Below, piece after piece: positions 35,676 through 53,088 of a DNA stretch of 54,140 bases. The stretch's first letter is position 1. Each line of letters begins with the position of its first letter. The stretch comes from Pseudomonas sp. GM78 (GTDB taxonomy: Bacteria; Pseudomonadota; Gammaproteobacteria; Pseudomonadales; Pseudomonadaceae). A model generated the notes under the pieces. It saw only the letters and a list, made by a program, of their open reading frames with translations, searched no databases and was not told the DNA's origin. The stretch is from positions 1 to 54,140 of the forward strand of contig NZ_AKJF01000206.1 in the NCBI RefSeq assembly GCF_000282475.1, written 5' to 3'. Made by a program: the position numbers and the translations under genes.

Positions 35676-36569
35676 TCAGGCCCGTGCCAGCGGTTCAGGC
35701 AGGCCCTTCACCCCGGGATTCAAGGCGAATACACCTCCGGCCAGCGGCTGGTCGGTCAGGTCGATGCCCTGGGGACGGATCGAGGTGACGAACAACGTAT
35801 CCAGCTGTGGGCCGCCAAAGGCGCACATGGTCGGTTTTTTCACCGGCAGGTGCAGTGCGCGATCCAGTTTGCCTTCGGGGGTGAAGCGCAGCACCTGTCC
35901 GGCATCGATCGCACAGATCCAGTAGCAGCCCTCGGCATCCACGGCGGCACCATCCGGGCGGCCCGGGTGCTGGTTCATGTCGACGAACACTCTGCGGTTG
36001 TGCGGTGTGCCGCTGTCGATGTCGTAGTCGAAGGCCCAGATCAATTGCACGCCGGGATGCGAATCCGAGAGGTACATAGTCTTGCCGTCCGGGCTGAAGG
36101 CCATGCCGTTGGGGACGGTCAGGCCTTCCAGGCGAGCGTGCAAGGGTTGTATCGAGCCACCGGCTTGCGGGTCGTAACGGTAGAGTGCGCCAACCGTATC
36201 GGCGCCCATGCCGGGGTGCATGGTGCCGGCCCAGAAGCGGCCCTGGCGGTCGCAGCGTCCGTCATTGAAACGCATGTTGTCGCGGGCATGTTCGACGCTG
36301 GCGCATTTTGTTGCGCGCAGGCGCCCATCCGCCTGGGGGGTCAGCTGGAAGATCCCGCTTTCTTGTGCGCCCAGCCAATGGCCTTGCGGGCTGCGGGCGA
36401 TGCACGCGAGCATTTCCTCGGCCTGCCAGGAGTGGGTCTGGCCGTCGAGCTGCCAGCGGTGCAAGCGGCCGGCGGGGATGTCCACCCAGTAGAGTGCGTT
36501 TTCCTGTGGCTGCCATATCGGGCTTTCGCCGGTGGCGTTGCGGGCGTCGATGATGAGTTCTGCGGTCAT
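35676..36569 (-). CDS. SMP-30/gluconolactonase-family lactonase, probably aldarolactonase
   Basis: A 297-residue six-bladed propeller. The metal ligand Glu15 is in TGESPIW; NDGRCDRQGRFWAGTM and PNGMAFSPDGKTMYLSDS carry the other conserved Asn/Asp ligands. It is directly downstream of uronate dehydrogenase (50 bp), whose product is a galactaro- or glucaro-1,5-lactone. In other pseudomonads SMP-30 proteins in this position hydrolyse that lactone (named UxuL), and the same role is inferred here. Third gene of the porin - udh - lactonase operon. Confidence 0.85.
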   Translation of the reverse strand: MTAELIIDARNATGESPIWQPQENALYWVDIPAGRLHRWQLDGQTHSWQAEEMLACIARSPQGHWLGAQESGIFQLTPQADGRLRATKCASVEHARDNMRFNDGRCDRQGRFWAGTMHPGMGADTVGALYRYDPQAGGSIQPLHARLEGLTVPNGMAFSPDGKTMYLSDSHPGVQLIWAFDYDIDSGTPHNRRVFVDMNQHPGRPDGAAVDAEGCYWICAIDAGQVLRFTPEGKLDRALHLPVKKPTMCAFGGPQLDTLFVTSIRPQGIDLTDQPLAGGVFALNPGVKGLPEPLARA

Positions 36570-36619
36570 GGGTCGGTTCCGGATTCAGGGGCCGGCGTTG
36601 CCGGCTGTGGGGACAGGGT

Positions 36620-37450
36620 TCAGTCGCCGAAAGGGCCGGCCGCCGTGAACGCGCCCCCTTGCAGCCGGGCGTTGGGATCGTCCGTCGCAGGCTTGGGCTG
36701 TTGCTCCATCTGCGCGCGGAAACGCTCGGAGCTGTCCTGCGGGTTGAAGCCCAGGTGCGCCGCGAAACGGTTGTTCCACCACAGGTCGCGGTTCGCCGAA
36801 ACGCCATAGACCACGGTGTGGCCAACGTTCTCGGCGAGCAACGCACGTTCCACCAGGTGCGCCAGGTCGGCGTAGCTCAGCCAGGTGGACAGCATGCGCA
36901 GGTTGCGTGGCTCGGGGAACGAGGAGCCAATGCGCAAGCTCACGGTCTCGATGCCGTAGCGATGGAAATAGAAGGTCGCAAGGTCTTCGCCATAGGACTT
37001 GGACAGCCCGTAGTAGCAGTCCGGGCGGCGCGGGGAATGCGCGTCCAGTTGCTGGTCCTGCGGATAGAAGCCGGTGACGTGGTTGGAGCTGGCGAAAACC
37101 ACGCGCTTGATCCCGTGTTTGCGCGCGGCCTCATAGACATGAAACGTACCGCGGATGTTGGCCTCGAGAATCTCCTCGAACGCACGCTCGGTGGAGATCC
37201 CGCCCAGGTGCACGATGGCATCCACTTCGTTGGCAAGCGCCAGGACCCCGGCCTTGTCCGCCAGGTTGCAGCTGATCACCTCTTCATGCTCGCCAGCGGG
37301 TGGCGCCATCTCGCTGATATCGCTGGCGCGTACGACATTGGCGTGCGCCTGCAACGCTTCGCGCAAAATCTGCCCAAGCCCGCCGGCGGCGCCGGTCAGC
37401 AGCAGGCGGTTGAAGGGCTTGTTCGCAGTGGAGGAGGGAGATGTCGTCAT
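36620..37450 (-). CDS. udh: Uronate dehydrogenase
   Basis: A 276-residue NAD-dependent extended SDR that oxidises galacturonate or glucuronate to the aldaro-1,5-lactone. LLLTGAAGGLGQ is the NAD loop, and the catalytic YxxxK is Tyr147-Lys151 (DCYYGLSKSYGED). ASSNHVTGFYP and LRIGSSFPEPRNLRMLSTWL are distinctive of bacterial uronate dehydrogenases; length matches the family. The ATG at 37450 gives that length, while the open frame runs on to 37498. It lies between the KdgM-type porin and the lactonase, marking the oxidative (aldarate) uronate route and not the isomerase route. Confidence 0.92.
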   Translation of the reverse strand: MTTSPSSTANKPFNRLLLTGAAGGLGQILREALQAHANVVRASDISEMAPPAGEHEEVISCNLADKAGVLALANEVDAIVHLGGISTERAFEEILEANIRGTFHVYEAARKHGIKRVVFASSNHVTGFYPQDQQLDAHSPRRPDCYYGLSKSYGEDLATFYFHRYGIETVSLRIGSSFPEPRNLRMLSTWLSYADLAHLVERALLAENVGHTVVYGVSANRDLWWNNRFAAHLGFNPQDSSERFRAQMEQQPKPATDDPNARLQGGAFTAAGPFGD

Positions 37451-37525
37451 GGCGGGTGCGTCTCTAATGGGATTTTTGTCGTGGACCTTGCGGGGCAACC
37501 CTGGCGGCTGCCCGGCGGTGGGGCA

Positions 37526-38251
37526 TTACATGAACGTGTACTTGATCCCCAGGCGCCAGCGGCCCTGGCGGTCGTCGGTGTAGGCGTTGACCTTGATGTC
37601 GCCCACTTCCATGAACGGGGCCCACTGCTTGTTGATCTTGTACTTGATGATCAGGTTTTGCTCGTAGTCGCTCTTCTTGTTGTCGTAGCGGATGTAGTCG
37701 GTGTCGAAGTAGATGTACTGGTACTCGAACGCCCACGGGCCTTGGGGGGTGTAGCCGAGCCAGCCTTCGAAGCGGGTAGTGTTCTGGTTGTCCTTGGCGC
37801 GGTCGCTGTAGCTGTGGTCGATCTGGTCGCGGTCCAGGCTCTTCGCATCGAGACGCAGGCGCGTGGCGACGTACCAGGTGTCGGAGATCTTGTAGTTGTA
37901 TTTCAGGCCGAACTTGTACGTGGTGGCGTCCTTGGAGCTGTCCACCTGGAATGACGGCGTCAGCGTCGACTTGGGGCTCAACTTGAAGTTGTAGTCCACG
38001 GTGAGCTCATGGCCGTTGTTGACCATGTTGTCGTAGGCGACGTCTTCGCGATCGCCTGCCGTCTTGTATTTGATCTCGGCTGCAAAACCCAGGCCGCTGT
38101 CCATCCGGTAATTAAGTTTCACCCGGTCGGAGTGGATGCTGTCGTCTTCGGTGTAACCGTGACGGTAATCGATACTGGCCGAGTCTGCGCAGGCATAAAA
38201 AGACCAGCCGAGGGTGCTGACAGCAATGAGATTGCGGAGTGATTTGTTCAT
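37526..38251 (-). CDS. KdgM-family oligogalacturonate porin
   Basis: A 241-residue outer-membrane beta-barrel. After a signal peptide (about residues 1-23) the sequence is alternating amphipathic strands rich in Tyr, Asp and Lys (IDYRHGYTEDDSIHSDRVKL, YKFGLKYNYKISDTWYVATR) and ends in a barrel-closing strand (LGIKYTFM). KdgM porins are small monomeric channels for anionic oligogalacturonides. First gene of the operon with udh; divergent from the plus-strand pectin operon across a 353-bp operator region. Confidence 0.87.
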   Translation of the reverse strand: MNKSLRNLIAVSTLGWSFYACADSASIDYRHGYTEDDSIHSDRVKLNYRMDSGLGFAAEIKYKTAGDREDVAYDNMVNNGHELTVDYNFKLSPKSTLTPSFQVDSSKDATTYKFGLKYNYKISDTWYVATRLRLDAKSLDRDQIDHSYSDRAKDNQNTTRFEGWLGYTPQGPWAFEYQYIYFDTDYIRYDNKKSDYEQNLIIKYKINKQWAPFMEVGDIKVNAYTDDRQGRWRLGIKYTFM

Positions 38252-38355
38252 GCGATCTTCTTTTTTGTTTTTGTCGAGGTCGTTATGAGGCGGGTCGTGG
38301 CTGTGAAATCCGGTGCGGCGGGGTGGGAGCTCCCTGGTGAATTTCGGCATAAGTT

Positions 38356-38368
38356 ATCGTACAACATT
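38356..38368. promoter_or_regulatory. Operator-like site 1 (mirror of site 3)
   Basis: ATCGTACAACATT is the exact reverse complement of site 3 at 38527-38539. It lies 105 bp upstream of the KdgM ATG. The ACAA/TTGT halves are the kind of sequence recognised by FCD-type GntR repressors, two of which are encoded at 49098-50652. Confidence 0.55.
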
Positions 38369-38393
38369 CAGGTCGTCTACGGTTTCTTCAAAT

Positions 38394-38406
38394 GTTGTCG
38401 GACAAC
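38394..38406. promoter_or_regulatory. Operator-like palindrome, site 2
   Basis: GTTGTCGGACAAC is a perfect 6-1-6 palindrome of the TTGTC/GACAA type typical of FadR/UxuR-branch GntR regulators. It is preceded by AAT, so its left half (AATGTTGT) also matches site 3. It lies between the porin operon and the ABC operon. Confidence 0.6.
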
Positions 38407-38468
38407 TCGGTACGATCGCTCTAAAATGGGCTTTATAGAGGATTGATCGGCAATGAAATGATGTCTAA

Positions 38469-38482
38469 GTGATGATAATCAC
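38469..38482. promoter_or_regulatory. Palindrome in the divergent region
   Basis: GTGAT and ATCAC flank a GATA centre (5-4-5). It differs from the TTGT/ACAA sites and could be bound by another regulator. No established consensus is matched with confidence. Confidence 0.3.
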
Positions 38483-38526
38483 CCTGAAAAAGCGTCTTTT
38501 TTAAAGTTTTCAAGAGGGCCTTTTCA

Positions 38527-38539
38527 AATGTTGTACGAT
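38527..38539. promoter_or_regulatory. Operator-like site 3
   Basis: AATGTTGTACGAT is the exact inverse of site 1 and lies 66 bp upstream of the enolase-superfamily gene, where repressor binding would block the ABC operon promoter. Sites 1 and 3 are 171 bp apart and in opposite orientation, one near each operon. Confidence 0.55.
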
Positions 38540-38604
38540 GACGTAGGATCACCTCCAGAGCGTGACTCACCCGCCACAAATCAAACAAGAAGGCTCAGAC
38601 GTCC

Positions 38605-39759
38605 ATGATCATCACTGCTGTAAACGTCCAGGTTTTTTCCTACCCCACACGCCGCGCTGTCGACAGCGCCGGCCATGCCCACCCGGGCGACGTTGCCCAG
38701 GCCCAGATGGCCTTGCTGCGCATCAGGACCGAATGCGGTAACGAAGGCTTCGCACTGGGTGCGCCCGAGCTCATTCGCCCTTATGTGCTGGACGGTTTCG
38801 TGCGCAAAGTGCTGGTGGGCGCCAATGCCTTTGATCGCGAGAAGATCTGGCACGACCTGGCGCACTGGCAGCGCGGCAGCGCCAGCCAGTTGACCGATCG
38901 TGCCCTGGCGCTGGTCGAGCAGGCCCTGTGGGACTGGGCCGGACGCAAGCTGAACGTGCCGGTGCACAAGCTGATCGGCGGTTACCGCGACAAGGTGCCT
39001 GCGTACGGTTCGACCATGTGCGGTGACGAGCTGGCGGGCGGTTTGTCGACCCCGGAGGAGTACGGCCGTTTCGCCGAGACCCTGGTCAAGCGCGGCTACA
39101 AGGCAATCAAGCTGCACACCTGGATGCCGCCGGTGTCGTTCGCACCCAGCGTGAGCATGGATATCAAGGCGTGCGCGGCGGTGCGCGAGGCGGTCGGCCC
39201 GGACATCGCGCTGATGATCGATGGTTATCACTGGTACAGCCGCACCGAAGCACTGACCATCGGCCGCGCCCTGGAGAAGCTGGATTTCGCCTGGTTCGAA
39301 GAGCCGATGATGGAAGACTCTGCCGAATCCTATGCCTGGTTGTCCGCTCAGCTGGACATTCCGGTGCTGGGCCCGGAAAGCCTGGGCGGCAAGCACCTGA
39401 GCCGGGCCAGCTGGGTGAAGAACGATGTCTGTGACATCTTGCGCGCCGGTGTCGCCGGGGTCGGCGGGATTGCACCGTGCCTGAAAGTCGCGCACATGGC
39501 CGAGTCGTTCGGCATGAATTGCGAGATCCACGGCAACGGCGCGGCCAACCTGGCGGTGGTCGGCGCGATCAAGAACTGCACCTGGTACGAGCGCGGCCTG
39601 TTGCACCCGTTCCTCAACTACGACGAGGTGCCGGCATACCTCAAGCGCCTGGTCGACCCAATGGATGAAGACGGCTTCGTGCACCTGTCGGACCTGCCAG
39701 GCCTGGGCGAGGAGATCGACTTCGACTACGTCGAGACCAACACGCTGCACAACTACTGA
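38605..39759 (+). CDS. Enolase-superfamily sugar-acid enzyme (mandelate racemase subgroup)
   Basis: A 384-residue enolase-superfamily protein. Metal ligands are Asp206 (MIDGYHWY), Glu232 (FEEPM) and Glu258 (GPES); the His309-Asp277 dyad (EIHGNG, CDILRAG) marks the mandelate racemase subgroup. The usual Lys-x-Lys base pair reads Lys169-Leu-His171 (IKLHTW). Family members dehydrate sugar acids or isomerise aldarolactones. In this cluster the best candidates are galactarate dehydration or galactarolactone ring opening; sequence alone does not decide. First gene of the plus-strand operon, with AAGAAGG upstream. Confidence 0.85.
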   Translation: MIITAVNVQVFSYPTRRAVDSAGHAHPGDVAQAQMALLRIRTECGNEGFALGAPELIRPYVLDGFVRKVLVGANAFDREKIWHDLAHWQRGSASQLTDRALALVEQALWDWAGRKLNVPVHKLIGGYRDKVPAYGSTMCGDELAGGLSTPEEYGRFAETLVKRGYKAIKLHTWMPPVSFAPSVSMDIKACAAVREAVGPDIALMIDGYHWYSRTEALTIGRALEKLDFAWFEEPMMEDSAESYAWLSAQLDIPVLGPESLGGKHLSRASWVKNDVCDILRAGVAGVGGIAPCLKVAHMAESFGMNCEIHGNGAANLAVVGAIKNCTWYERGLLHPFLNYDEVPAYLKRLVDPMDEDGFVHLSDLPGLGEEIDFDYVETNTLHNY

Positions 39760-39768
39760 TTCGTGCAT

Positions 39769-39794
39769 GGCGGCACGCGTCATGGCGTGCCGCC
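39769..39794 (+). other. Intergenic hairpin before the first binding-protein gene
   Basis: GGCGGCACGC (39769-39778) and GCGTGCCGCC (39785-39794) form a perfect 10-bp stem with a 6-nt loop, 9 bp after the preceding stop. There is no T-tract, so it is unlikely to be a strong terminator; it may stabilise or help process the operon mRNA. Confidence 0.6.
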
Positions 39795-39828
39795 CGAGAG
39801 TCCAATAACTATAAAAAGGCTATCTCAC

Positions 39829-41439
39829 ATGAGCGTTCTCCCCAAACTCTGGGCGGGGGTCTTTGCCGCATCGCTGGCGCTGACCTCGGTCTCTGCTGCA
39901 TTCGCCAAGACCCCGGCCGACCAGTTGATCGTCGGCATGAGCATGATCAACCTGCTGTCCCTCGACCCGGCGGCTGCCACCGGGCTGGATGTCTCGGAGA
40001 TCAACGCCAACCTGTACGACATGCTGCTGGTGCAGGATGTGCGGCAACCGGACCGGCTGGTACCGGCCCTGGCCGAAAGCTGGCAGGTCAGCGCTGATCG
40101 CAAGACCCTGACCTTCAACTTGCGCAAGGGCGTGACGTTCCAGTCTGGCAATCCACTCGGCGCCGAAGACGTCGCCTGGTCACTGCAACGGGTTCTCAAG
40201 CTCAACCTGGCCCTGGCCTCGACCTGGAAGGCCTACGGTTTTACCGCTGGCAACGTCGACCAGTACCTGCGCGCCACCGACGAGCACACCTTCGTCGTCG
40301 AACTGCCGCGCCCGACCGATCCGATGCTGATCCTCAATACCCTGGCGACCTCGCCCAGCGCATTCATCCTCGACCGCAAAGTGGTGCAGCAGCATCAGAA
40401 GGGCAATGACATGGGCGGCGCCTGGCTGGTTACCCACGCTGCCGGCAGCGGTCCGTTCATCCTCAATGACTGGCGCGCCAACGACGTGATCCTGATGACC
40501 CGCTTCGACGGTTACTGGGGTGGCCCGGCCAGGCTCAAGCGCATCGTCATGCGCAACATGACCGAATCGCAGTCACTGCGCCTGATGGTCGAGCGCGGTG
40601 ACCTGGACCTGGCCAAGGGCATGTCCGCGCCGGATATCGAAGCGCTGGAGAAGTCCGACAAGGTGCGTACCCAGACCGTGCAGCGCGGCACCCTTTATTA
40701 CGTGGCCCTGAACGTCAAGCAAAAGCCCTTTGACGACGCCCGCGTACGCCGGGCGGTGCGTTCGCTGATCGACTATCAGGGCATCAACCAGACCGTGATG
40801 CCGCACTACGGCCAGCTCAACCAGCGGCCACTGCCGCTGGGCTTGCCGGCGCGCCTGGACGATCCGGGCTACACCCTGAACGTGGCCGAGGCGAAACAGC
40901 TGCTGAGCGACGCCGGCTACCCCGAAGGCTTCAAGACCACTATCCGCGTGCTCACCGAGCCGCCGTTCATCAACATTGCCTCCAGCCTGCAATCGACCTT
41001 GGCCCAAGCCGGCATCCAGGCCACCATCGTGACCGGCACCGGCAACCAGATCTACGGCGCCATGCGTGAGCGCAGTTTCGACATGCTGGTCGGGCGCGGT
41101 GGTGGCGGTGCTGAGCGGCATCCGCATTCGAGCCTGCGCACCCTGGTGTACAACCCGGACAACCGCGACGAAGCCAAGCTGAGCAACTTCCAGGGCTGGC
41201 GCACGTCGTTCTACAGCCCCGAGTTGAACAGCCTGATCGAACAGGCCGAAGTCGAGCCGGACAAGGCGCGGCAACTGGCGCAGTACCAGCAGATCCAGAC
41301 CACCCTGGATGCGCAGGTGGGGGCGATCCTGCCCGTCTCGCAAATGACCGACACCGTGGTGCTGTACAACGATGTCCGGGATTACCAGGGCCACACCGCG
41401 GCCACCACCCCTTACAAGGACGTCTACAAGTCGCGTTGA
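39829..41439 (+). CDS. ABC importer binding protein 1 (SBP family 5)
   Basis: A 536-residue periplasmic binding protein of the dipeptide/nickel/oligosaccharide class, with a signal peptide (residues 1-26, cut after AFA). LRKGVTFQSGNPLGAEDVAW is the family motif. It is the same length as the second binding protein at 42598 and very similar throughout (both begin KTPADQLIVGMSM after the signal). A short distinguishing insert is VGRGGGGAERHPHSSLRTL. AAAAGG lies before the ATG, in a leader shared with the second copy (AACTATAAAAAG). Likely ligand: an oligogalacturonide or galacturonate, by context. Confidence 0.92.
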   Translation: MSVLPKLWAGVFAASLALTSVSAAFAKTPADQLIVGMSMINLLSLDPAAATGLDVSEINANLYDMLLVQDVRQPDRLVPALAESWQVSADRKTLTFNLRKGVTFQSGNPLGAEDVAWSLQRVLKLNLALASTWKAYGFTAGNVDQYLRATDEHTFVVELPRPTDPMLILNTLATSPSAFILDRKVVQQHQKGNDMGGAWLVTHAAGSGPFILNDWRANDVILMTRFDGYWGGPARLKRIVMRNMTESQSLRLMVERGDLDLAKGMSAPDIEALEKSDKVRTQTVQRGTLYYVALNVKQKPFDDARVRRAVRSLIDYQGINQTVMPHYGQLNQRPLPLGLPARLDDPGYTLNVAEAKQLLSDAGYPEGFKTTIRVLTEPPFINIASSLQSTLAQAGIQATIVTGTGNQIYGAMRERSFDMLVGRGGGGAERHPHSSLRTLVYNPDNRDEAKLSNFQGWRTSFYSPELNSLIEQAEVEPDKARQLAQYQQIQTTLDAQVGAILPVSQMTDTVVLYNDVRDYQGHTAATTPYKDVYKSR

Positions 41440-41443
41440 GCGG

Positions 41444-41467
41444 GTGAGGGGCGTGCGCGTCCCTCAC
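41444..41467 (+). other. Hairpin after binding protein 1
   Basis: GTGAGGG (41444-41450) pairs with CCCTCAC (41461-41467) and the inner GCG with CGT, giving a 10-bp stem with a TGCG loop. It starts 5 bp past the stop codon. Such structures after binding-protein genes often raise their mRNA level over downstream permease genes. Confidence 0.6.
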
Positions 41468-41505
41468 GCTTCGGTGCTTGGTGAACGCTTTTTCAGGAGC
41501 CTGAT

Positions 41506-42543
41506 ATGTTTCTTTCGACTGCCTCTGTGCTGGGCGCCCGCGTGTCCGGCACGGCCCGCCGGGCCAGCACCGTCCTGGTGACTCTGCTGGGCCTGCTGGC
41601 GCTGACCTTCTTCATTGGTCGGGTGATGCCGCTGGACCCGGTGCTGGCCGTGGTCGGTCCGGACGCCGACAGCACCACCTACGACCAGGTGTACCGGGCC
41701 ATGGGCCTGGACAAACCGATCTGGACCCAGTTCGGCCTGTACCTCGATGACCTGCTGCACGGTGATTTCGGCAACGCGCTACTGACCGGCCACCCGGTGC
41801 TCGAAGACATCAAGCGGGTGTTCCCGGCGACCATCGAACTGGCGACCCTGGCGATCCTGTTCGGCATCCTCATCGGCTTGCCGCTGGGTGTGGTTGCCGC
41901 CAGCAACCAGGGCCGCCTGGGTGATCATGTGGCACGGGTGATCACCCTGTTCGGTTACTCCACGCCGATTTTCTGGGTCGGCATGATGGGCCTGCTGGTG
42001 TTCTATGCCTGGCTGGGCTGGGCGGGCGGGGCAGGGCGCATCGACCTGGCCTACGACGGCATGGTGCCGGACGTCACCGGCCTGCTGTTGATCGACACGG
42101 CGCTGGCGCGTGACTGGGAAGCCTTTGCCAGCGCACTGCGGCACATCGTCCTGCCGGGGCTGATCCTCGGCCTGAACTCGGTCGCCTACATCAGCCGCAT
42201 GACCCGCAGCTTCATGCTCGAACAGCTGTCCCAGGAATACATCATCACCGCGCGGGTCAAGGGCCTGTCGCGGCGCCAGGTGGTCTGGGGGCATGCGTTT
42301 CGCAACATCCTCGTGCAGTTGCTCACGGTGGTCGCCCTGGCCTACGGCTCGCTGCTCGAAGGTGCGGTGCTGATCGAGACGGTGTTCGCCTGGCCCGGCT
42401 TTGGCCAGTACCTCACCAGCAGCCTGATGCTCGGTGACATGAATGCGGTGATGGGGTGCGTGCTGGTGATCGGCCTGATCTTCGTCGCCCTCAACCTGGT
42501 CAGCGACGCCCTGTACAAAGTGTTCGATCCCCGGACCCGCTGA
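41506..42543 (+). CDS. ABC importer permease (DppB-like)
   Basis: A 345-residue inner-membrane permease with about six spans. The EAA-like loop YIITARVKGLSRRQVVWGHA (about 245-264), which contacts the ATPases, is clear, as is the family opening LALTFFIGRVMPLDPV. AGGAG lies before the ATG. It lies between the two binding-protein genes and pairs with the DppC-like subunit at 44272. Confidence 0.93.
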   Translation: MFLSTASVLGARVSGTARRASTVLVTLLGLLALTFFIGRVMPLDPVLAVVGPDADSTTYDQVYRAMGLDKPIWTQFGLYLDDLLHGDFGNALLTGHPVLEDIKRVFPATIELATLAILFGILIGLPLGVVAASNQGRLGDHVARVITLFGYSTPIFWVGMMGLLVFYAWLGWAGGAGRIDLAYDGMVPDVTGLLLIDTALARDWEAFASALRHIVLPGLILGLNSVAYISRMTRSFMLEQLSQEYIITARVKGLSRRQVVWGHAFRNILVQLLTVVALAYGSLLEGAVLIETVFAWPGFGQYLTSSLMLGDMNAVMGCVLVIGLIFVALNLVSDALYKVFDPRTR

Positions 42544-42597
42544 GCCGCCCAGGCCTGCGTGAGCACAGTAAACAACTATAAAAAGAAGGATGCCCAC

Positions 42598-44208
42598 ATG
42601 AACACTGTATTGCCGACCCTGCGCATGAGCCTGCTGGGCGCGATCATGGCGCTGAGTCCGATCGCCGCGGTGCAGGCCAAGACCCCTGCCGATCAGTTGA
42701 TCGTCGGCATGAGCATGGTCAACCTGTTCTCCATCGACCCGGCCAACGCGCCGGGCCTGGATGCCTCCGGGGTCAATGCCAACCTCTACGACACGCTGGT
42801 CAAGCGCGACCACGGCAACCCGGAAAAACACCTGCCGCAGCTGGCTGAACGCTGGGAGGTGAGCGAAGACGGCAAGCAGATCACCTTCCACCTGCGCAAC
42901 GGCGTGAAGTTCCACTCTGGCAACGCCCTCACCGCCGAAGACGTGGCGTGGTCGCTGTACCGGGTGATGAAACTCAACTTCGGCCTGGCCACCACCTGGA
43001 AGGCCTACGGCTACAGCGTCGACAACATCCAGGGGCTGATCCGCGCCACCGATGCGCAAACCCTGGTAGTCGACCTGCCACAGCCGACCGACCCATTGCT
43101 GGTGATCGACTCGCTGGCGATTTCGCCCAGCGCCGTGGTGGTCGATCGACAGGAAGCCTTGAAGCACGAGAAGAACGGCGACCTGGGCGCTGCCTGGCTG
43201 GTCACTCACGAAGCTGGCAGCGGCCCGTTCACCCTGAGCAAATGGAGCGCCAACGATTCGCTGGTGATGAGCCGTTTCGATGATTACTGGGCTGGGCCGG
43301 CCAAGATGAAGCGGGTGCTGGTGCGCCACATGACCGAGTCGCAATCGCTGCGCCTGATGCTCGAACGCGGTGACCTGGACCTGGTCTACGGCATGGCCGC
43401 GCCCGACATCAAGGCCATCGAGCACTCCGACAAGCTGCAGGTGCAGTCGCTGCAACGCGGCACGATGTATTACGTGGCGATGAGCATGAAACAGCCCGAA
43501 TTCGCCAACCAGAAAGTCCGCGAAGCGGTGCGTAACCTGATCGACTACCAGGGCCTGGACGAACAGGTGATGCCGCATTACGGCAAGCTCAACCAGCAGC
43601 CGATGCAGCTGGGCCTGGAGGCGCGCCTGCCAGACCCAGGCTACAAAATGGACGTGGCCAAGGCCAAGGCGCTGCTGGCCGAGGCCGGCTACCCCCAAGG
43701 TTTCAGCACCACCATTCGCACCCTGTCCGAGCCGCCCTTCATCGACATTGCCGCGCGCATGCAGTCGACCCTGGCCGAAGGCGGGATCAAGGCCAGCATC
43801 GTCACCGGCACCGGCAACCAGGTGTATGGCGCCATGCGCGCGCGCAACTTCGAGATGATCGTGGCGCGCGGTGCCGAGCGCTACCCGCACCCGTACTTCA
43901 GCCTGCGCACGTTCATCTACAACCCGGACAACGGTGACGCCGCCGGCTTGCCCAACTTCCAGGGCTGGCGGGCGTCGTTCTTCAATCGCCAGCTCAATGA
44001 GCTGATCGACCAGGTCGGTGTCGAGCGCGACGCAGGCAAGCGCCTGAGCCTCTACCACCAGGCGCAGAAGCTGTACGACGAGCAGGTCGGCCCGATCATG
44101 ATGATCTCGCAGATGACCGACACTGCCGTGAGCGCGGTGGACGTCAAGGGCTTCGTCGACGATGACGCCGAGGCGACCCGTTACCTGGGTGTCTACAAGC
44201 AACGCTGA
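42598..44208 (+). CDS. ABC importer binding protein 2 (paralogue of the first)
   Basis: A 536-residue paralogue of the binding protein at 39829: signal peptide (1-25, ending VQA), KTPADQLIVGMSMVNLFSID, the family motif LRNGVKFHSGNALTAEDVAW, and the same MTESQSLRLM and TGTGNQVYGAMR segments. The start at 42598 is set by AAGAAGGA; upstream GTG is not needed. The leader repeats AACTATAAAAAG from the first copy, so leader and gene were duplicated together. The two probably differ in ligand range. Confidence 0.92.
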   Translation: MNTVLPTLRMSLLGAIMALSPIAAVQAKTPADQLIVGMSMVNLFSIDPANAPGLDASGVNANLYDTLVKRDHGNPEKHLPQLAERWEVSEDGKQITFHLRNGVKFHSGNALTAEDVAWSLYRVMKLNFGLATTWKAYGYSVDNIQGLIRATDAQTLVVDLPQPTDPLLVIDSLAISPSAVVVDRQEALKHEKNGDLGAAWLVTHEAGSGPFTLSKWSANDSLVMSRFDDYWAGPAKMKRVLVRHMTESQSLRLMLERGDLDLVYGMAAPDIKAIEHSDKLQVQSLQRGTMYYVAMSMKQPEFANQKVREAVRNLIDYQGLDEQVMPHYGKLNQQPMQLGLEARLPDPGYKMDVAKAKALLAEAGYPQGFSTTIRTLSEPPFIDIAARMQSTLAEGGIKASIVTGTGNQVYGAMRARNFEMIVARGAERYPHPYFSLRTFIYNPDNGDAAGLPNFQGWRASFFNRQLNELIDQVGVERDAGKRLSLYHQAQKLYDEQVGPIMMISQMTDTAVSAVDVKGFVDDDAEATRYLGVYKQR

Positions 44209-44214
44209 ACACCG

Positions 44215-44240
44215 CCGGGAGGCGTCTGCGGACGTCCCGG
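44215..44240 (+). other. Hairpin after binding protein 2
   Basis: CCGGGA (44215-44220) pairs with TCCCGG (44235-44240) and CGTC (44223-44226) with GACG (44231-44234), with a TGCG loop and a 2-nt bulge. It has the same loop and the same position after a stop as the hairpin at 41444. Confidence 0.6.
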
Positions 44241-44271
44241 GTGGCCATGATTTCACATCGAGAGCATGCCG

Positions 44272-45189
44272 ATGATTGCCAACCTGTCTTCTACCGAATC
44301 AACCGCCGGGCGGCCGGCCGACAAGACGCCCGCCTCCAGCCTCGACGCGCTGTACAAAAGCAGCCTGCGGGTGCTGCGTCACCTGTTGCGCAACCCGATG
44401 ACCCTGGCCGGGGTGCTGGTGGCCTTGCTGCTCATGGTGGTGGCCGCCTTCGCGCCCTGGATCGCCACCCACGACCCGGTGGTGCAGAACCTCGCCAACG
44501 CCCTGCAGGCCCCCGGCGCCGCGCACTGGTTCGGCACCGACGAATACGGCCGCGACATCTTCAGCCGGTTGGTCTACGGCTCACGCATCACCCTGTACAT
44601 CATTGCCCTGGTGACGATTATCGTCGGCCCGATCGGGCTGTTCATCGGCACCGTCTCGGGCTATTTCGGCGGCATCGTCGACACGGTGTTCATGCGCATC
44701 ACCGACATCTTCATCTCGTTCCCGAGCCTGGTGCTGGCCCTGGCGTTCATCGCAGCCCTTGGCCCTGGCCTGGAGCATGCCGTGGTCGCTATCGCGCTGA
44801 CTTCATGGCCACCGATCGCACGCCTGGCCCGGGCCGAGACCCTGTCGCTGCGCAAGGCCGACTTCGTCGTGGCGGTGGAGCTGCAGGGGGCGTCCTCGAG
44901 CCGCATCATCCTGCGCCACATCGTGCCCATGTGCCTGTCGTCGGTGATCATCCGCCTGACCATGAACATGGCCGGCATCATTCTCACCGCCGCGGCCCTG
45001 GGCTTCCTCGGCCTGGGCGCGCAGGCGCCGCTGCCGGAGTGGGGCGCGATGATCTCCACCGGCCGGCGCTACATGCTCGAGTGCTGGTGGCTGGTCGCGG
45101 TACCGGGTGCGGCAATCATGCTGGTGAGCCTGGCGTTCAACCTGTTGGGCGATGGCCTGCGGGACATTCTCGATCCGCGTAGCGAGTAA
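44272..45189 (+). CDS. ABC importer permease (DppC-like)
   Basis: A roughly 305-residue permease with about six spans; the opening YKSSLRVLRHLLRNPMTLAG and the motif WFGTDEYGRDIFSRLVYGSR are typical of DppC/NikC. The EAA loop is FVVAVELQGASSSRIILRH. GAGAG fits the ATG at 44272 better than the one at 44266. It partners the DppB-like subunit; the gene order binding protein - permease - binding protein - permease is unusual. Confidence 0.92.
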   Translation: MIANLSSTESTAGRPADKTPASSLDALYKSSLRVLRHLLRNPMTLAGVLVALLLMVVAAFAPWIATHDPVVQNLANALQAPGAAHWFGTDEYGRDIFSRLVYGSRITLYIIALVTIIVGPIGLFIGTVSGYFGGIVDTVFMRITDIFISFPSLVLALAFIAALGPGLEHAVVAIALTSWPPIARLARAETLSLRKADFVVAVELQGASSSRIILRHIVPMCLSSVIIRLTMNMAGIILTAAALGFLGLGAQAPLPEWGAMISTGRRYMLECWWLVAVPGAAIMLVSLAFNLLGDGLRDILDPRSE

Positions 45190-45200
45190 CTGGAGGCTTT

Positions 45201-46040
45201 ATGTCGACGCTCAAACTCAATGTCGATTCGCTCAATGTGCGCTTCGTCAACGGCAAGAAAGAAATGCACGCGGTGCGCGATGTGTCGTTCACCCTGGGCC
45301 GCGAAAAGCTCGCCATTGTCGGCGAGTCCGGCTCGGGCAAGTCCACCGTCGGGCGCAGCTTGCTCAAGCTGCACCCGGCGAGCACGCAGATCAGCGCCAA
45401 GGCCATGCAGTTCGGCGAAGTCGACCTGCTCGGCGCCAGCGAAAAGGCCATGCAGAAGATCCGTGGCCAGCGCATCTCGATGATCATGCAAGACCCCAAG
45501 TACTCGCTCAACCCGGTGGTCAAGGTCGGCGACCAGATCGCCGAGGCTTACCTGGCGCACCACAAGGCCAGCCGCAGTGAAGCCCGCGACCGGGTGCTGC
45601 TGATGCTGGAAAAGGTCCACATCCGCGACCCGCAGCGCGTCTACAACCTGTATCCCCATGAAGTCAGCGGCGGCATGGGCCAGCGCATCATGATCGCCAT
45701 GATGGTGATCACCAACCCTGAAGTGATCATCGCCGATGAGCCGACTTCGGCGCTCGATGTGTCGGTGCGCCAGCAAGTGCTCAACGTGCTCGAAGAGCTG
45801 GTGGTCGAGCAGCAGATGGGGCTGATCTTCGTCAGCCACGACCTCAACCTGGTGCGCAACTACTGCGACCGCGTGCTGGTGATGTACGCAGGAAGAGTGG
45901 TCGAGTCACTTGCCGCCTGCGACCTGCAGTACGCCGAACACCCCTACACCCGTGGCCTGCTGGCAGCCTTGCCGAGCATGGACAACCGCCGCCCGCGCTT
46001 GCCGGTGTTGCAACGCGACCCACTCTGGCTCACCTGCTGA
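45201..46040 (+). CDS. ABC importer ATPase 1 (DppD/NikD-like)
   Basis: A 279-residue ATPase: Walker A GESGSGKST (about 48-56), signature SGGMGQR, Walker B VIIADEPTSALD and switch His in FVSHDLNL. It lacks the ~50-residue C-terminal cysteine-rich extension of true oligopeptide ATPases, as in NikD-type subunits. GGAG precedes the ATG, 11 bp after dppC-like. Confidence 0.93.
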   Translation: MSTLKLNVDSLNVRFVNGKKEMHAVRDVSFTLGREKLAIVGESGSGKSTVGRSLLKLHPASTQISAKAMQFGEVDLLGASEKAMQKIRGQRISMIMQDPKYSLNPVVKVGDQIAEAYLAHHKASRSEARDRVLLMLEKVHIRDPQRVYNLYPHEVSGGMGQRIMIAMMVITNPEVIIADEPTSALDVSVRQQVLNVLEELVVEQQMGLIFVSHDLNLVRNYCDRVLVMYAGRVVESLAACDLQYAEHPYTRGLLAALPSMDNRRPRLPVLQRDPLWLTC

Positions 46041-46050
46041 GGTAATTGAC

Positions 46051-46827
46051 ATGTCCATGATCCAGGCACAATCGCTGAACCTGAGCTTCGGCATCGGCCC
46101 TGCGCTCAACCAGGTGCTGCACGACGTCAACCTGAGTGTCGAGGATGGCGAGTCGTTCGGCCTGGTGGGCGAGTCGGGTTCCGGCAAGACCACCGTGCTG
46201 CGCTGCCTGGCCGGCCAGTACCGGCACTGGAGCGGAGCGCTGAGCATTGCCGGCGTACCGCTGCAGCACAAGATCCCCAAGGAGCACTTTCGCAAGGTGC
46301 AGATGGTCTTCCAGGACCCGTACGGCTCGCTGCATCCGCGCCATACCATCGACACCGCGTTGCGCGAGCCGCTGACCATCCACGGGATGGACGAGCGTGA
46401 CGACCGCATCAACGACATCCTGCTCAAGGTCGGCCTCAACGACAGCTTCCGCTATCGCTATCCGCACCAGTTGTCCGGCGGCCAGCGTCAGCGCGTGGCG
46501 ATTGCAAGGGCGCTGATTCTCCAGCCGCGGGTGTTGCTGCTGGATGAGCCGACCTCGGCCCTCGACGTTTCGGTGCAGGCCGAGATTCTCAACCTGCTGG
46601 CGGATCTGCGTCAGCGCGAGAAGCTCACCTACCTGATGGTGACCCACGACCTCGGCGTGGTCAGCCATCTGTGCGACAAGGTCGCGGTGATGCAGCAGGG
46701 ACGGATTGTCGAGCGCCTGGACAGCCAGGCGTTGAGTCAGGACCTGGCTCGTCACGAATACACCCGCATGCTGGTGCAGGCCAGTCGCGATTTCAGTGCC
46801 GAGTCGCCGCGGGTTGCGACGGTCTGA
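46051..46827 (+). CDS. ABC importer ATPase 2 (DppF/NikE-like)
   Basis: A 258-residue ATPase with Walker A GESGSGKTT, the Q-loop MVFQDPYGSLHPRH, signature LSGGQRQR and Walker B VLLLDEPTSALD. The start at 46051 follows GAGG, 10 bp after the first ATPase. With that subunit it powers the importer. It is shorter than DppF and ends without an oligopeptide-binding tail. Confidence 0.93.
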   Translation: MSMIQAQSLNLSFGIGPALNQVLHDVNLSVEDGESFGLVGESGSGKTTVLRCLAGQYRHWSGALSIAGVPLQHKIPKEHFRKVQMVFQDPYGSLHPRHTIDTALREPLTIHGMDERDDRINDILLKVGLNDSFRYRYPHQLSGGQRQRVAIARALILQPRVLLLDEPTSALDVSVQAEILNLLADLRQREKLTYLMVTHDLGVVSHLCDKVAVMQQGRIVERLDSQALSQDLARHEYTRMLVQASRDFSAESPRVATV

Positions 46828-46856
46828 ACCCTGCGTTTTCACTCAAGGAATTCAAC

Positions 46857-47225
46857 ATGCCCCATTGCATTATCGATTGCCCGGCAGCCCTCGCCCGGCG
46901 AGTCGGCGAACAGAAGTTGCTGGCCGCCGTGCACGACGCCATCGACGCCAGCGGCTTGTTCAAGCCTGGCGATATCAAGGCGCGCCTGAACAGCTTCGAG
47001 CATTACCGCTGCGGTGCCACCCAGGATGATTTTGTCCACGTGGCGCTGTACCTGTTCGCCGGGCGCAGCGCTGAACAACGGCGCAGCCTCGCGTCAGCGA
47101 CCATGGCGGCGCTGGTCGCCTTGTTGCCAGAGGTCGAGGCGTTGTCCATGGACGTGCGGGAAATGCCGCGGGAAACCTTCGTCAATCGCAGCCAATACCT
47201 CGAACAGGCTGCGCTGGCGATCTGA
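46857..47225 (+). CDS. CHMI-type tautomerase
   Basis: A 122-residue protein of the 5-carboxymethyl-2-hydroxymuconate isomerase branch of the tautomerase superfamily. After Met removal it begins with Pro (PHCIIDCP), the catalytic base of this superfamily; FVHVALYLFAGRSAEQR matches the central strand and helix. AAGGAA lies seven bases upstream. It lies between the importer ATPases and the polygalacturonase, with no homoprotocatechuate genes nearby, so an aromatic role is doubtful. It may interconvert enol/keto forms of a uronate product (inference). Confidence 0.78.
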   Translation: MPHCIIDCPAALARRVGEQKLLAAVHDAIDASGLFKPGDIKARLNSFEHYRCGATQDDFVHVALYLFAGRSAEQRRSLASATMAALVALLPEVEALSMDVREMPRETFVNRSQYLEQAALAI

Positions 47226-47264
47226 GCCTGTTGGTTCAGGTGCACACACAAGGAAAACCAGAAC

Positions 47265-49088
47265 ATGCCGTATGCGAGTCCTGCCGTTGCTTCAAACCGT
47301 CACCCTTTGGCGCAGTCGGTACTGGCTGTCCTGGCCGTGGGCTGCAGTCTGCCGCTCTGGGCATTGGAGGCGCCCGCCAGGGTCCAGGTGCCGACCCTGG
47401 CGTATGACGACCAGCAGATTATTTTGGTATGGGAGAAGCCGGCAGGGCATGCTGCTATCGCCGATTACCATGTGTACGCCAATGGCAAGCTGCTGGGTGG
47501 CGCCAACGCCAACAATGCCCGAGTGTCGCCGGCCAGGCCTTACATCGACAGGTTCTACGATCAGGACACCCGGCACTTCCATCACCGCATCGCCATCCAC
47601 AGTTTCACCGCGCTTGGCCTTGCGCCCGACACCGAATACCGTTTCACGGTGCGTTCGGTGGGAAGCGACGGCAAGGAGTCGGCTGATAGTCCGGCGGTGG
47701 TCCAGCGCACCACCGCCGTGCCAGCGCTATTCGATGTAAGAGAGCAGGGTGCCAAGGGCGATGGCAGCACGCTGGACACCGCCGCGATCCAGCGCGCCAT
47801 CGATGCCTGCACCCCGGGTTGCAAGGTGTTGTTGCCGGCCGGCACATACAAGAGCGGCGCGCTGTACCTCAAGAGCAACATGACCCTCGAGATCGCCGAG
47901 GGTGCGACCTTGCTTGGCTCCGAGCGTGCCGAGGACTACCCGCGTGATGGTTATGTCCAGTACCCGTATTCCACCACCGTGCGCCCGGCCTCGCTGATCA
48001 ACGCTTTACCCCGTGACCCGCGCAAGCACCAGGCTTTCGAGAACATCCGCATCGTCGGCAAGGGCACCCTCGACGGCAATGGCTGGAAGCGCCAGGCCGA
48101 CGCTATCGACGAACGCGGCCAGCCGTTGCCGGTCTATGTGCCGAGCGACAACACGCGATACATGCACGATGGTGTGCTGGCCAAGGCTCAGGTAGAACGC
48201 GCGGTGGCCGAAGGCATGAACGTCAAGGACGCCTATGGACAGATGCGCTCGTCGCTGATCACCCTGCGCGATGTGACGAACGTCTTCTACGGTGGCTTCA
48301 CGGTACTCAACCCCGCTTACCACGGCATCATGAACCTGGAAAACCACAACGTGGTGCTGGCCAATATCACGCACAAGACCTTTGATGCCAATAACGGTGA
48401 CGGTGTCGAATTCGCCAACAGCCGCGGCGCGATGGTGTTCAACAACTTCTTCGACACCGGCGATGATTGCGTCAACTTCGCAGCCGGCACTGGCGCCGAA
48501 GCGACGCAGCAAAAGCCTCAGGAAGACGCCTGGATCTTCAACAACTTTTTCCGCAAAGGCCACGGCATGGTCGTCGCCGGCAGTCATACCGGGGCGTGGA
48601 TCCAGGACATCCTGGCCGAGGACAACGTTTCCGACGGCACCGATGCCGGTCTGCGTATGAAGAGCACCAACTTCATGGGCGGCGGGGCGCGCAACGTCAC
48701 CTTCCGTGATTCGGCGATTCGCAATACGCTCAAGCAGGCCTTCATCTTCACCCTTGATTACAACGATCCGAATGCCAAGCTCGACTACAGGAGATCGACC
48801 CTGGCAGGGCAGTTCCGCGATATCCGGGTCAGTGATGTGAGTGTGGAGAACGCCGGGATGGCGGCGATCGAAGTCAAGGGTGATAGCCAGCACAGCGCCT
48901 TTCATCAAGGCCTGGCCTTTGAGCGGGTACGCTTCAGCGGGCCGGCCGGCGTGAAGATCGATGGCTTGAAGGATTCGCGATTTGACACTGTTCGCTTCAG
49001 TGAAGCCGGGGATGCCAATCCATGGCAGGTGAGCGGTAGCCAGGGGCTGGCCTTCCATGAGGTGGAGCCCGCGCCGCCCGCTCAATAG
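47265..49088 (+). CDS. GH28 exo-polygalacturonase-like enzyme
   Basis: A 607-residue secreted enzyme: signal peptide (about 1-35), a fibronectin-III-like domain (about 40-155, ending DGKESADSPAVV), then a GH28 beta-helix. All GH28 active-site groups are present: NNGDG (Asp379), DTGDD (Asp400/Asp401), GHG (His433) and RMK (Arg464-Lys466). The FN3-plus-GH28 build resembles exo-poly-alpha-galacturonosidases that release digalacturonate from chain ends. Last gene of the plus-strand operon, 39 bp after the tautomerase. It supplies the substrate for the porin, importer and Udh. Confidence 0.92.
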   Translation: MPYASPAVASNRHPLAQSVLAVLAVGCSLPLWALEAPARVQVPTLAYDDQQIILVWEKPAGHAAIADYHVYANGKLLGGANANNARVSPARPYIDRFYDQDTRHFHHRIAIHSFTALGLAPDTEYRFTVRSVGSDGKESADSPAVVQRTTAVPALFDVREQGAKGDGSTLDTAAIQRAIDACTPGCKVLLPAGTYKSGALYLKSNMTLEIAEGATLLGSERAEDYPRDGYVQYPYSTTVRPASLINALPRDPRKHQAFENIRIVGKGTLDGNGWKRQADAIDERGQPLPVYVPSDNTRYMHDGVLAKAQVERAVAEGMNVKDAYGQMRSSLITLRDVTNVFYGGFTVLNPAYHGIMNLENHNVVLANITHKTFDANNGDGVEFANSRGAMVFNNFFDTGDDCVNFAAGTGAEATQQKPQEDAWIFNNFFRKGHGMVVAGSHTGAWIQDILAEDNVSDGTDAGLRMKSTNFMGGGARNVTFRDSAIRNTLKQAFIFTLDYNDPNAKLDYRRSTLAGQFRDIRVSDVSVENAGMAAIEVKGDSQHSAFHQGLAFERVRFSGPAGVKIDGLKDSRFDTVRFSEAGDANPWQVSGSQGLAFHEVEPAPPAQ

Positions 49089-49097
49089 CCGGTAGCG

Positions 49098-49841
49098 TTA
49101 TTCGTTGTAGAACGCCTGGCGTTGTTGCGCTTCACGCAGGCGCATGCGGCTGTTGCTCAAGTGCAGGTACATGGCCGCACGCGCCGCATCCACCTGGCGA
49201 CTGGCGATGGCGTCGAAGATCTGCTGATGCTCGCTGTTGATGCCCTGCAGGTAGGTGCTGCGATTGCTTTGGCCGGTATAGGCGGAGTTCATCCGGGTGC
49301 GCGGGATCAGCTTGGTACCCAGGTGCTTCATGATGTCTATCAGGTAGGGATTGCCGCTGGCCTTGGCGATTTTCAGATGGAACTGGAAATCGGCGTTGAT
49401 GGTGCTGCCGGATTTTTCCGGACCTTGCAGCAACGCGTGCAAGGCTTGCTCCAGCTCCTCGAGTGCCTGCGGTGTGGCACGTTCGGCGGCCATGCCGGCG
49501 GCCTGCACTTCCAGGCTCAGGCGAAACTGCAACAGGTCGAGCACTTCCGACAGTTCAACAATCGTCGGCGGCCCCAGGGTGAATCCTTCGGGGGCCGGCA
49601 TGTCTTTGACGAAGGTACCGACCCCGTGACGGGTTTCGACCAGGCCCGCCGCCTGCATGCGCGACAGCGCTTCGCGAACCACTGAGCGACTGACCCCTTC
49701 GGCCGCCATGATATGCGCTTCGGTAGGCAGCTTTTCGCCACGCTTGAGCTCGCCTTCACGCATGCGCCGGGCAAAGCGTTCAACCAGTGATTCGGCCATT
49801 CGGCGCGGTTTGTTTTGGGCTGCAGAGGAGGAATCCGACAT
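49098..49841 (-). CDS. GntR-family regulator, FadR/FCD branch (1)
   Basis: A 247-residue repressor: winged helix LPTEAHIMAAEGVSRSVVRE, ALSRMQAAGLVETRHGVGTF, then the all-helical FCD ligand domain with metal-binding His in FQFHLKIAKASGN. The start at 49841 excludes the extra upstream frame that would overlap the divergent gene. It converges on the polygalacturonase and is divergent from a paralogue. FCD regulators commonly sense sugar acids; uronates or aldarates fit here. Confidence 0.9.
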   Translation of the reverse strand: MSDSSSAAQNKPRRMAESLVERFARRMREGELKRGEKLPTEAHIMAAEGVSRSVVREALSRMQAAGLVETRHGVGTFVKDMPAPEGFTLGPPTIVELSEVLDLLQFRLSLEVQAAGMAAERATPQALEELEQALHALLQGPEKSGSTINADFQFHLKIAKASGNPYLIDIMKHLGTKLIPRTRMNSAYTGQSNRSTYLQGINSEHQQIFDAIASRQVDAARAAMYLHLSNSRMRLREAQQRQAFYNE

Positions 49842-49868
49842 CGTCTTGCTCTTGGCTGATCGGCGGGC

Positions 49869-49905
49869 ATTATAGTGCGTTTTGAGCCAAGGCTGCGGGT
49901 ATAAT
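49869..49905. promoter_or_regulatory. Two facing -10 boxes between the GntR genes
   Basis: A perfect TATAAT lies at 49900-49905 on the plus strand and another at 49869-49874 on the minus strand. Each is a few tens of bases before its GntR start codon. The -35 regions overlap and are weak. An imperfect palindrome, CATCGTCTGGTATG (49911-49924), follows the plus box and could be a GntR operator. Confidence 0.55.
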
Positions 49906-49938
49906 GACGCCATCGTCTGGTATGAAAGGATTTGTTAC

Positions 49939-50652
49939 ATGGTGAGCGCTGCCCCTGATCGACGCCTGAACCTGGCCCAGCAACTGGTGCTTGATCTGTC
50001 GCGCAAAATTCTCGCCGGCGAGCTGCCAGCGGGGACCAAGCTCCCTACCGAACAAGTCATCACCCAGGAGCGCGGCGTCAGCCGGACCGTGGTTCGCGAA
50101 GCCTTGTCGCGACTGCAGGCAGAGGGGCTGGTAGAGACCCGGCGTGGCATCGGCACCTTCGTTGTCGACACCATCCGGCCCGGCGACTTCCAGGGTAACC
50201 AGCATGAAAAGGGCAGCGCCTACGACGCGGTGGCGATCATCGAGCTGCGCTTGAGCCTGGAGGTGGAGGCCGCCGCCATCGCTGCGCAATGCGCAACCCC
50301 CAGCCAGTTGTTGGCCATGCGTTACGCACTGGATGAGGCCCACGCGCTGGATCCGGCCAATGAGCAAAGTACGCGCCTGGACTTCGAGTTCCACCTGCAG
50401 ATTGCCCAGTGCACCGCGAACGGTTTCTTCATCGATGCCATGACCCACCTGGGCAGCATGCTGCTGTCTGCCACGCAGCAGCCCACCCCGGCGGTGACGG
50501 AGCCACTGCGCAGCTTGCAGGTACGTGAGCGCGAACAGATCTACGCCGCGGTGGCGCGCCAGGACGTCGAAGCCGCACGCGCGGCCATGCGCCTGCACCT
50601 GACCAATGGCTTGCACCGCGCGCGTAGCGTCGTTCAGTCAGCCGCTGAATAA
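49939..50652 (+). CDS. GntR-family regulator, FadR/FCD branch (2)
   Basis: A 237-residue FCD regulator: winged helix LPTEQVITQERGVSRTVVRE, ALSRLQAEGLVETRRGIGTF, and the ligand domain with His in FEFHLQIAQCTANG. AAAGGA precedes the ATG at 49939. It is clearly related to the divergent neighbour, so the pair may have arisen by duplication. It converges on pcaG. One or both probably bind the TTGT/ACAA sites at 38356-38539. Confidence 0.9.
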   Translation: MVSAAPDRRLNLAQQLVLDLSRKILAGELPAGTKLPTEQVITQERGVSRTVVREALSRLQAEGLVETRRGIGTFVVDTIRPGDFQGNQHEKGSAYDAVAIIELRLSLEVEAAAIAAQCATPSQLLAMRYALDEAHALDPANEQSTRLDFEFHLQIAQCTANGFFIDAMTHLGSMLLSATQQPTPAVTEPLRSLQVREREQIYAAVARQDVEAARAAMRLHLTNGLHRARSVVQSAAE

Positions 50653-51275: not shown

Positions 51276-51287
51276 ACGCAGGCCTCC

Positions 51288-53064: not shown

Positions 53065-53088
53065 TCGGGGGGCTCTGCCGTCGTGTTT

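Follow-up and report, generated by a model that had tools for sequence, protein, structure and literature searches.

The window analysed here is a 54,140-nucleotide stretch of DNA from Pseudomonas sp. GM78 that makes up one whole contig (NZ_AKJF01000206.1) of a 7.3-Mb genome in 235 contigs. Between positions 35676 and 50652 it carries an island of pectin and acid-sugar genes with a peptide-class ATP-binding cassette (ABC) importer, laid out as two divergent operons that are both faced by a near-palindromic motif, GTTGTACGATRAC. With somewhat more confidence than doubt, we read this island from its gene families and their conservation as an oligogalacturonide-scavenging addition to the oxidative hexuronate and aldarate gene set of Pseudomonas. 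Gene identities were taken from open reading frame (ORF) calls combined with Pfam, NCBIfam and PDB sequence searches. A preliminary description made from the letters of the sequence had listed a GH28 polygalacturonase, a KdgM-type porin, a peptide-class importer, uronate dehydrogenase (Udh), an SMP-30 lactonase, an enolase-superfamily protein and a pair of GntR regulators in two divergent operons. These searches bore out the gene set, with both binding proteins of the importer falling in SBP_bac_5 and both regulators in the FCD-GntR group, and the arrangement matches the order and strands that we found.

Three genes lie on the minus strand. An SMP-30/gluconolactonase-family protein (35676-36569; PF08450, 285 bits), by its context a probable uronolactonase of the UxuL type, adjoins the island copy of uronate dehydrogenase, Udh (36620-37450, start placed by eye in an ORF open to 37498), whose nearest solved relatives are the uronate dehydrogenases 6mfh (307 bits) and 3rft (263 bits). 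The third gene codes for a KdgM-family oligogalacturonate porin (37526-38251, start by eye, ORF open to 38350; PF06178, 160 bits against a cut-off of 22), for which passage of oligogalacturonides is predicted. The plus strand begins with the enolase-superfamily gene (38605-39759) and continues with substrate-binding protein 1 (SBP1, 39829-41439, start by eye, ORF open from 39763), permease 1 (41506-42543), substrate-binding protein 2 (SBP2, 42598-44208, start by eye, ORF open from 42559), permease 2 (44266-45189), ATPase 1 (45201-46040), ATPase 2 (46051-46827, start by eye), a CHMI-family (tautomerase) gene (46857-47225; PF02962, 48 bits) that the preliminary description had overlooked, and the GH28 polygalacturonase gene (47265-49088). 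A divergent pair of FadR-type GntR genes ends the island, one on the minus strand (49098-49841, start by eye, ORF open to 49913; PF07729, 106 bits, and PF00392, 64 bits) and one on the plus strand (49939-50652, start by eye, ORF open from 49882; PF00392, 73 bits, and PF07729, 71 bits).

The enolase-superfamily protein scores 609 bits to 1rvk and 4hcd and 106 bits to 4ggb, which we take to be the galactarolactone cycloisomerase Gci. Because its sequence falls with 1rvk/4hcd, far from 4ggb, a Gci was ruled out and we regard it as a probable acid-sugar dehydratase of the 1rvk/4hcd clade; these two entries presumably carry a glucarate-dehydratase title, on which we do not rely. The GH28 protein (PF00295, 68 bits) is the single match to this family in its genome. 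It is homologous over nearly its full length to the Yersinia exo-polygalacturonase 2uve (689 bits, residues 30-593 to 31-597) and was classed as YeGH28 type; by eye its N-terminus resembles a signal peptide, and an FN3 match of 24 bits falls just below the cut-off of 25. YeGH28 yields mostly digalacturonate (PMC8839585), and another study sets enzymes that release dimers against those that release monomers (PMC10059216); digalacturonate is likewise the predicted product of the island enzyme.

Ten residue positions separate the island Udh copies (46 distinct ones besides that of the window) from 12 second copies; only position 126 (Thr versus Ile) is near the SSNH motif, and we set these residues aside as too weak a signal. 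Among 298 genomes of the genus, 22 carry a CHMI copy of at least 72% identity, by coordinates always directly beside the GH28 gene (22 of 22), and the Pro following the start Met is conserved in all 29 distinct aligned copies. Copies of 40-47% identity were found at 12 other places in the 298 genomes; several lie near glycine-cleavage genes by eye (10 places fetched, genes of six inspected), and their neighbours gave no clue to the function of the CHMI protein.

Conservation of the island and duplication of its binding protein

The island is real and conserved beyond chance. In a survey of the same 298 genomes, 35 code for a GH28 relative at least 72% identical over a long stretch (any match was seen in 88, the remainder being weak or short). 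The surroundings were fetched in 20 of these 35, one of them the same species, and the three at 73-74% identity were not among them. The porin, the enolase, both binding proteins, both permeases, both ATPases and GH28 were kept in all 20 loci. Udh was seen in 17; in G073 and G071 it lies just beyond the fetched stretch, and in G165 the sole good Udh is encoded elsewhere in the genome, away from the island. KdgD lies within seven of the 20 islands. Four contain a chemoreceptor gene, which in L040 (10315-11928), and also in L041, L035 and L037, sits between the ATPase and the CHMI/GH28 genes; the one scanned codes for a methyl-accepting chemotaxis protein with an sCache_2 domain. This chemoreceptor is a candidate sensor of pectin products.

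A second survey, in which named genomes were scanned with an SBP2 alignment that reaches close relatives only, gave 53 loci: 50 are labelled Pseudomonas, including the soil strain P. capeferrum WCS358 (L055), and the others are a metagenome-assembled genome labelled Paucimonas, one Serratia and one Dactylopiibacterium. All 53 hold permease 1; permease 2, the ATPases, the enolase and SBP1 were found in 52 each, SBP2 in 51, the porin and a GntR gene in 50 each, GH28 in 45 (one 52% and one 27% identical, the 27% stretch, in L103, being dropped from the rows because of a stop-codon error), Udh in 42, the CHMI gene in 26, the lactonase in 22 and KdgD in 16. Serratia sp. Ag1 (L102, 8792-18933) groups the enolase, one binding protein and the ABC genes with a DAO-family oxidoreductase; the 52% identical GH28 is on the opposite strand, and Udh has no match there above 30% anywhere in the genome.

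The importer resembles the Dpp/Opp/Nik class, which includes AgaA and the agrocinopine transporter of AccA, in its SBP_bac_5 binding proteins, two permeases and two ATPases. PF00496 is the only Pfam match of SBP1 and SBP2 (271 and 262 bits), and the NikA and DppA NCBIfam matches are far under cut-off. ATPase 1, of the OppD/DppD class, has OppD-, GsiA- and DppD-type NCBIfam matches, all under their cut-offs, and ATPase 2 matches PF00005 with 122 bits. Permeases 1 and 2 were named from their ORFs and their 62-70% and 63-71% identity to the annotated ABC permeases of eight plasmid loci described below. The best PDB match of SBP2 is the peptide-ABC binding protein 8upi (132 bits), and 59 sequences reach an E-value of 1e-10 in an SBP2 search, including AgaA and the agrocinopine-binding AccA. 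The island differs from this class in having two binding-protein genes per operon, in its linkage to acid-sugar enzymes and in the absence of Asp408 of DppA, which we take to be the residue that holds the peptide amine. We confirmed the residue in DppA; at its position the alignments place Ala in SBP1, Ala or Arg, depending on the alignment, in SBP2, and Met, Val or Gln in the eight plasmid relatives.

SBP2 is a long-branched Pseudomonas duplicate that co-occurs with KdgM. It is the sister of the Pseudomonas SBP1 with full support in a 27-row tree whose DppA outgroup is very long, and its stem measures 0.40 changes per column against 0.098 for that of SBP1 (L092, with a split SBP2, was left out of alignment A3). 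SBP2 and the KdgM porin stand together in 50 of the 53 loci (L052 is a cut contig of 6.3 kb), and both are missing from the Serratia and Dactylopiibacterium loci and from the eight plasmid loci.

Uronate genes elsewhere in the genome and a shared promoter motif

The preliminary description had called the island self-contained. This is wrong, because homologues of KdgD, GarD and monomer transporters and a probable semialdehyde dehydrogenase are encoded elsewhere in the genome. Contig C85 carries genes for an OprD-like porin, a second uronate dehydrogenase (Udh2, 69% identical to the island copy), a second SMP-30 protein, a TRAP transporter (DctP over cut-off) and an aldose-epimerase-like protein. 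On contig C66 are a GntR gene, a kdgD homologue with an aldehyde dehydrogenase gene beside it (best model the α-ketoglutarate semialdehyde (KGSA) dehydrogenase NF042993, 532 bits, below the cut-off of 770), an MFS transporter gene (TIGR00893, over cut-off) and garD (TIGR03248, 962 bits, over cut-off). Contig C129 holds a further kdgD homologue and gudD (TIGR03247, 872 bits, over cut-off), together with MFS transporter and aldehyde dehydrogenase genes; these two, like all genes on the three contigs given here without a score, were named by eye. Contig C7 codes for an MFS protein that shares 55% identity with ExuT of E. coli. The one KdgD of the relatives that was tested passes TIGR03249 (436 bits against a cut-off of 374), and the C129 and C66 homologues, judged by identity, are 87% and 78% identical to it. 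The presence of a monomer gene set alongside the island is our chief reason to assign oligomers to the island.

That no lyase, KduI/KduD or UxaC-type gene is present, as the preliminary description had it, holds inside the island; genome-wide, KduD and other lyases were not searched. UxaC was found in none of the 35 GH28 genomes, in a search whose control matched in seven of 14. PL1 is not in the GM78 genome and is present in 19 of the 35 (21 of the 44 searched). A KduI-family match was obtained in 18 of the 35, GM78 included, where it is IolB (TIGR04378, 310 bits, cut-off 205); the 17 others are untyped.

In the divergent promoter the motif occurs as the operator-like sites GTTGTACGATAAC on the porin side (38353-38365, minus strand) and GTTGTACGATGAC on the enolase side (38530-38542, plus strand), with the palindromic operator-like site GTTGTCGGACAAC (38394-38406, no strand assigned) between the two oriented sites. 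The core of this palindrome, TTGTNNNACAA, is absent from the other 43 promoter regions compared. With one mismatch allowed, 87 sites fall within 21,840 bases, namely the 420 before each enolase in 52 of the 53 loci (L052, a short contig with no enolase, was dropped), and 51 in the remaining 1,077,801 bases of these loci, 50 of them at most 190 bases from a kdgD or gntR start. Both orientations precede the enolase in 39 of the 52 loci.

The pattern was derived from this promoter and the loci share ancestry, so other genes make a fairer test. Exact sites precede kdgD in six of six genomes, an ExuT homologue in three of the six, and in all six an orthologue of the OprD-like porin found at the head of the Udh-TRAP operon in GM78; for five of the six, the check covered the porin gene that follows the site rather than the full operon. 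The six genomes hold 52 exact places, of which 47 were checked by their downstream gene, four island places of GM78 and one palindrome counted twice being left out; 26 of the 47 precede an island, kdgD, OprD-like porin, ExuT-like or gntR gene, a count that excludes weak downstream matches (a 31% MFS and a 27% lactonase match in G279). The motif thus links the island to kdgD, the second Udh-TRAP operon and the ExuT homologue, and it may act as an operator; the operons of the island are probably regulated jointly. In G062, G279 and G216, the GntR gene adjacent to the island is 67-69% identical to that of the kdgD locus of GM78, and the GntR protein of this kdgD locus is a candidate binder of the motif. 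Bouvier et al. 2018 are said to have reported GguR, with a GntR-family regulon that joins Udh, TRAP, KdgD and GarD genes. The set of genes behind our motif presumably resembles this regulon.

A predicted route for galacturonides

As a scavenging addition to the hexuronate gene set, the island would work as follows. Short oligogalacturonides would cross the outer membrane through the KdgM porin, and an exported exo-polygalacturonase of YeGH28 type would trim them, chiefly to digalacturonate. The peptide-class ABC importer with its two binding proteins would then take up the (di)galacturonide. Udh, the lactonase of the SMP-30 family and the enolase-superfamily dehydratase would lead to 5-dehydro-4-deoxyglucarate. 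KdgD and a semialdehyde dehydrogenase, whose genes lie elsewhere in the genome, would convert this to 2-oxoglutarate. We infer the substrates throughout, the export of GH28 and the order of the steps.

An oxidative route for imported galacturonides by way of an Opp/Dpp-class importer had been put forward in the preliminary description, and it remains the best reading; the DppA Asp is missing from both binding proteins. The route as such is not new. It is known for Pseudomonas from two papers (PMC6353982, PMC9007349), one of which gives the lactonase PP_1170 and the dehydrogenase PP_1171 as mattering for uronate growth of P. putida (PMC9007349). Like the oxidative hexuronate pathway of Pseudomonas and Agrobacterium (Udh, UxuL or Gli/Gci, KdgD and KGSA dehydrogenase), the island has Udh and SMP-30 genes, with KdgD homologues in the same genome and no UxaC found there; it adds the exo-polygalacturonase, the KdgM porin and the peptide-class ABC, and a 1rvk-clade enolase takes the place of Gci. 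With the enterobacterial oligogalacturonide system, described for Serratia oryzae as KdgM, TogMNAB, PehX/YeGH28, Ogl and KduI/KduD (PMC6831795), it shares a KdgM-family porin and a YeGH28-type GH28. It differs from that system in its peptide-class importer in place of TogMNAB (which was not searched genome-wide), in that no Ogl (PL22) was found, and in following an oxidative rather than an isomerase route. TogB presumably belongs to a class other than SBP_bac_5, and the binding proteins of the island, which match PF00496 only, are not of the TogB family.

The island pairs a peptide/nickel-type transporter class, other than that of the best-studied pectin importer, with genes for pectin use. 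No peptide-class galacturonide importer of Pseudomonas was found in the titles and abstract openings of the matches listed from the open-licence literature. Oligogalacturonides also act as plant alarm signals, so their capture by plant- and soil-living Pseudomonas would matter for plant colonisation.

Alternative substrates and the fate of the dimer

Several results weigh against this oligomer-scavenging reading, and those from plasmids bear on the importer itself. From 40 records with the enolase we opened eight plasmid loci (Klebsiella, Rahnella, Agrobacterium, Sinorhizobium, Palleronia, Salipiger, Rhizobium and Paracoccus). All eight combine an enolase 65-72% identical to that of the island with a peptide-class ABC and have no GH28, KdgM or Udh within about 20 kb; because of this, the importer may originally have served a substrate other than a galacturonide. 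A single such binding protein is encoded in each locus, and in eight of eight it is closer to SBP1 than to SBP2. The older unit thus seems to be the enolase with the peptide-class ABC, and the oldest visible link of the importer seems to be to the enolase, not to the pectin genes. Taken with the duplication that gave SBP2 alongside KdgM, this pattern suggests that an acid-sugar cassette was refitted for pectin oligomers.

Further counterevidence comes from related loci and from the motif. In the straminea group, seven loci (L087, L088, L089, L093, L095, L101 and L104) have the enolase, ABC, porin and gntR genes and no GH28 or Udh in the stretch; GH28 is encoded elsewhere in six of these seven genomes, and a 66-68% identical Udh in all seven. 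These loci, with those of Serratia and Dactylopiibacterium, are the nine of 52 that show no motif before the enolase. Among the 47 exact sites, 21 precede no uronate or gntR gene. Counted over whole genomes, the reversed control pattern outnumbers the motif in each of the six (21 versus 10 in GM78), so only the position of the motif is informative; with up to two mismatches the window holds seven sites where 5.2 are expected, which is no enrichment, and related loci do not count as independent.

The scavenging reading is weakest at what becomes of digalacturonate inside the cell. The gap here is a sharp one: searches for PL22, PL2 and a second GH28 brought up no known enzyme that would split the imported dimer. 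PL22 was found in none of the 35 GH28 genomes; neither was PL2, in a search that matched no control genome either; and GM78 has a single GH28, that of the island. Either GH28 gives monomers, or another enzyme cleaves the dimer, or the enolase-superfamily enzyme does so by beta-elimination. That this enzyme is itself the intracellular galacturonide-splitting enzyme can be argued by analogy, and we hold it to be quite unlikely. Gci expels a lactone oxygen and the dehydratases expel hydroxide; here the enzyme would take the C5 proton beside the reducing-end carboxylate and expel the galacturonate linked through C4-O. To supply its substrate, the island Udh would oxidise digalacturonate at the reducing end and the lactonase would open it; alternatively, the substrate would be oligogalacturonides that plant enzymes had already oxidised. 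The products would be galacturonate and the substrate of KdgD, so that no PL22 lyase or glycosidase would be needed. If true, such splitting would explain why GM78 keeps a further gene set in the island although it also has Udh2, another SMP-30 gene, GarD and GudD, and why the enolase stays with the importer even where Udh is absent.

An unlikely but tenable alternative is that the importer and the enolase form a system for aldarates or their conjugates (galactarate, glucarate, esters), with GH28, KdgM and Udh feeding galacturonate into the regulon. The plasmid loci speak for it, having the cassette without the pectin genes or Udh, with kdgD beside it in one of the eight and a GDSL or dienelactone-type hydrolase adjoining the enolase in four. 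However, GarD and GudD units are already present in GM78, and an MFS transporter gene accompanies both (over the TIGR00893 cut-off in the former, by eye in the latter); KdgM and SBP2, which co-occur in Pseudomonas, are found in none of the eight. It is also improbable that the importer takes up galacturonate monomers freed outside by GH28. Udh and lactonase act on monomers in the cases described (PMC6353982, PMC9007349), and no intracellular galacturonide-cleaving enzyme was found when PL22, PL2, PL1 and a second GH28 were looked for; yet TRAP and ExuT-type monomer transporter genes of the same genome have the same motif upstream, YeGH28 yields mainly the dimer (PMC8839585) and monomers would not require a KdgM porin.

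Import of peptides or nickel, with the place of the ABC in the island an accident, we regard as highly improbable. Such a substrate would suit the SBP_bac_5 family of the binding proteins and the NikA and DppA matches, far under cut-off as these are. Against it stand the presence of the ABC in all 20 GH28 islands fetched and beside the enolase in all eight plasmid loci, the shared motif and the absence of the residue corresponding to DppA Asp408.

Outside the island, its immediate neighbours (window 50673-53187) are a LysR regulator and a pair of the protocatechuate 3,4-dioxygenase type; among the 20 fetched loci, the pair was seen only in the same-species genome. At 28636-31491 of the window, a 951-amino-acid protein with response-regulator-type DNA-binding and AAA/NB-ARC domains is encoded next to a LysR gene.

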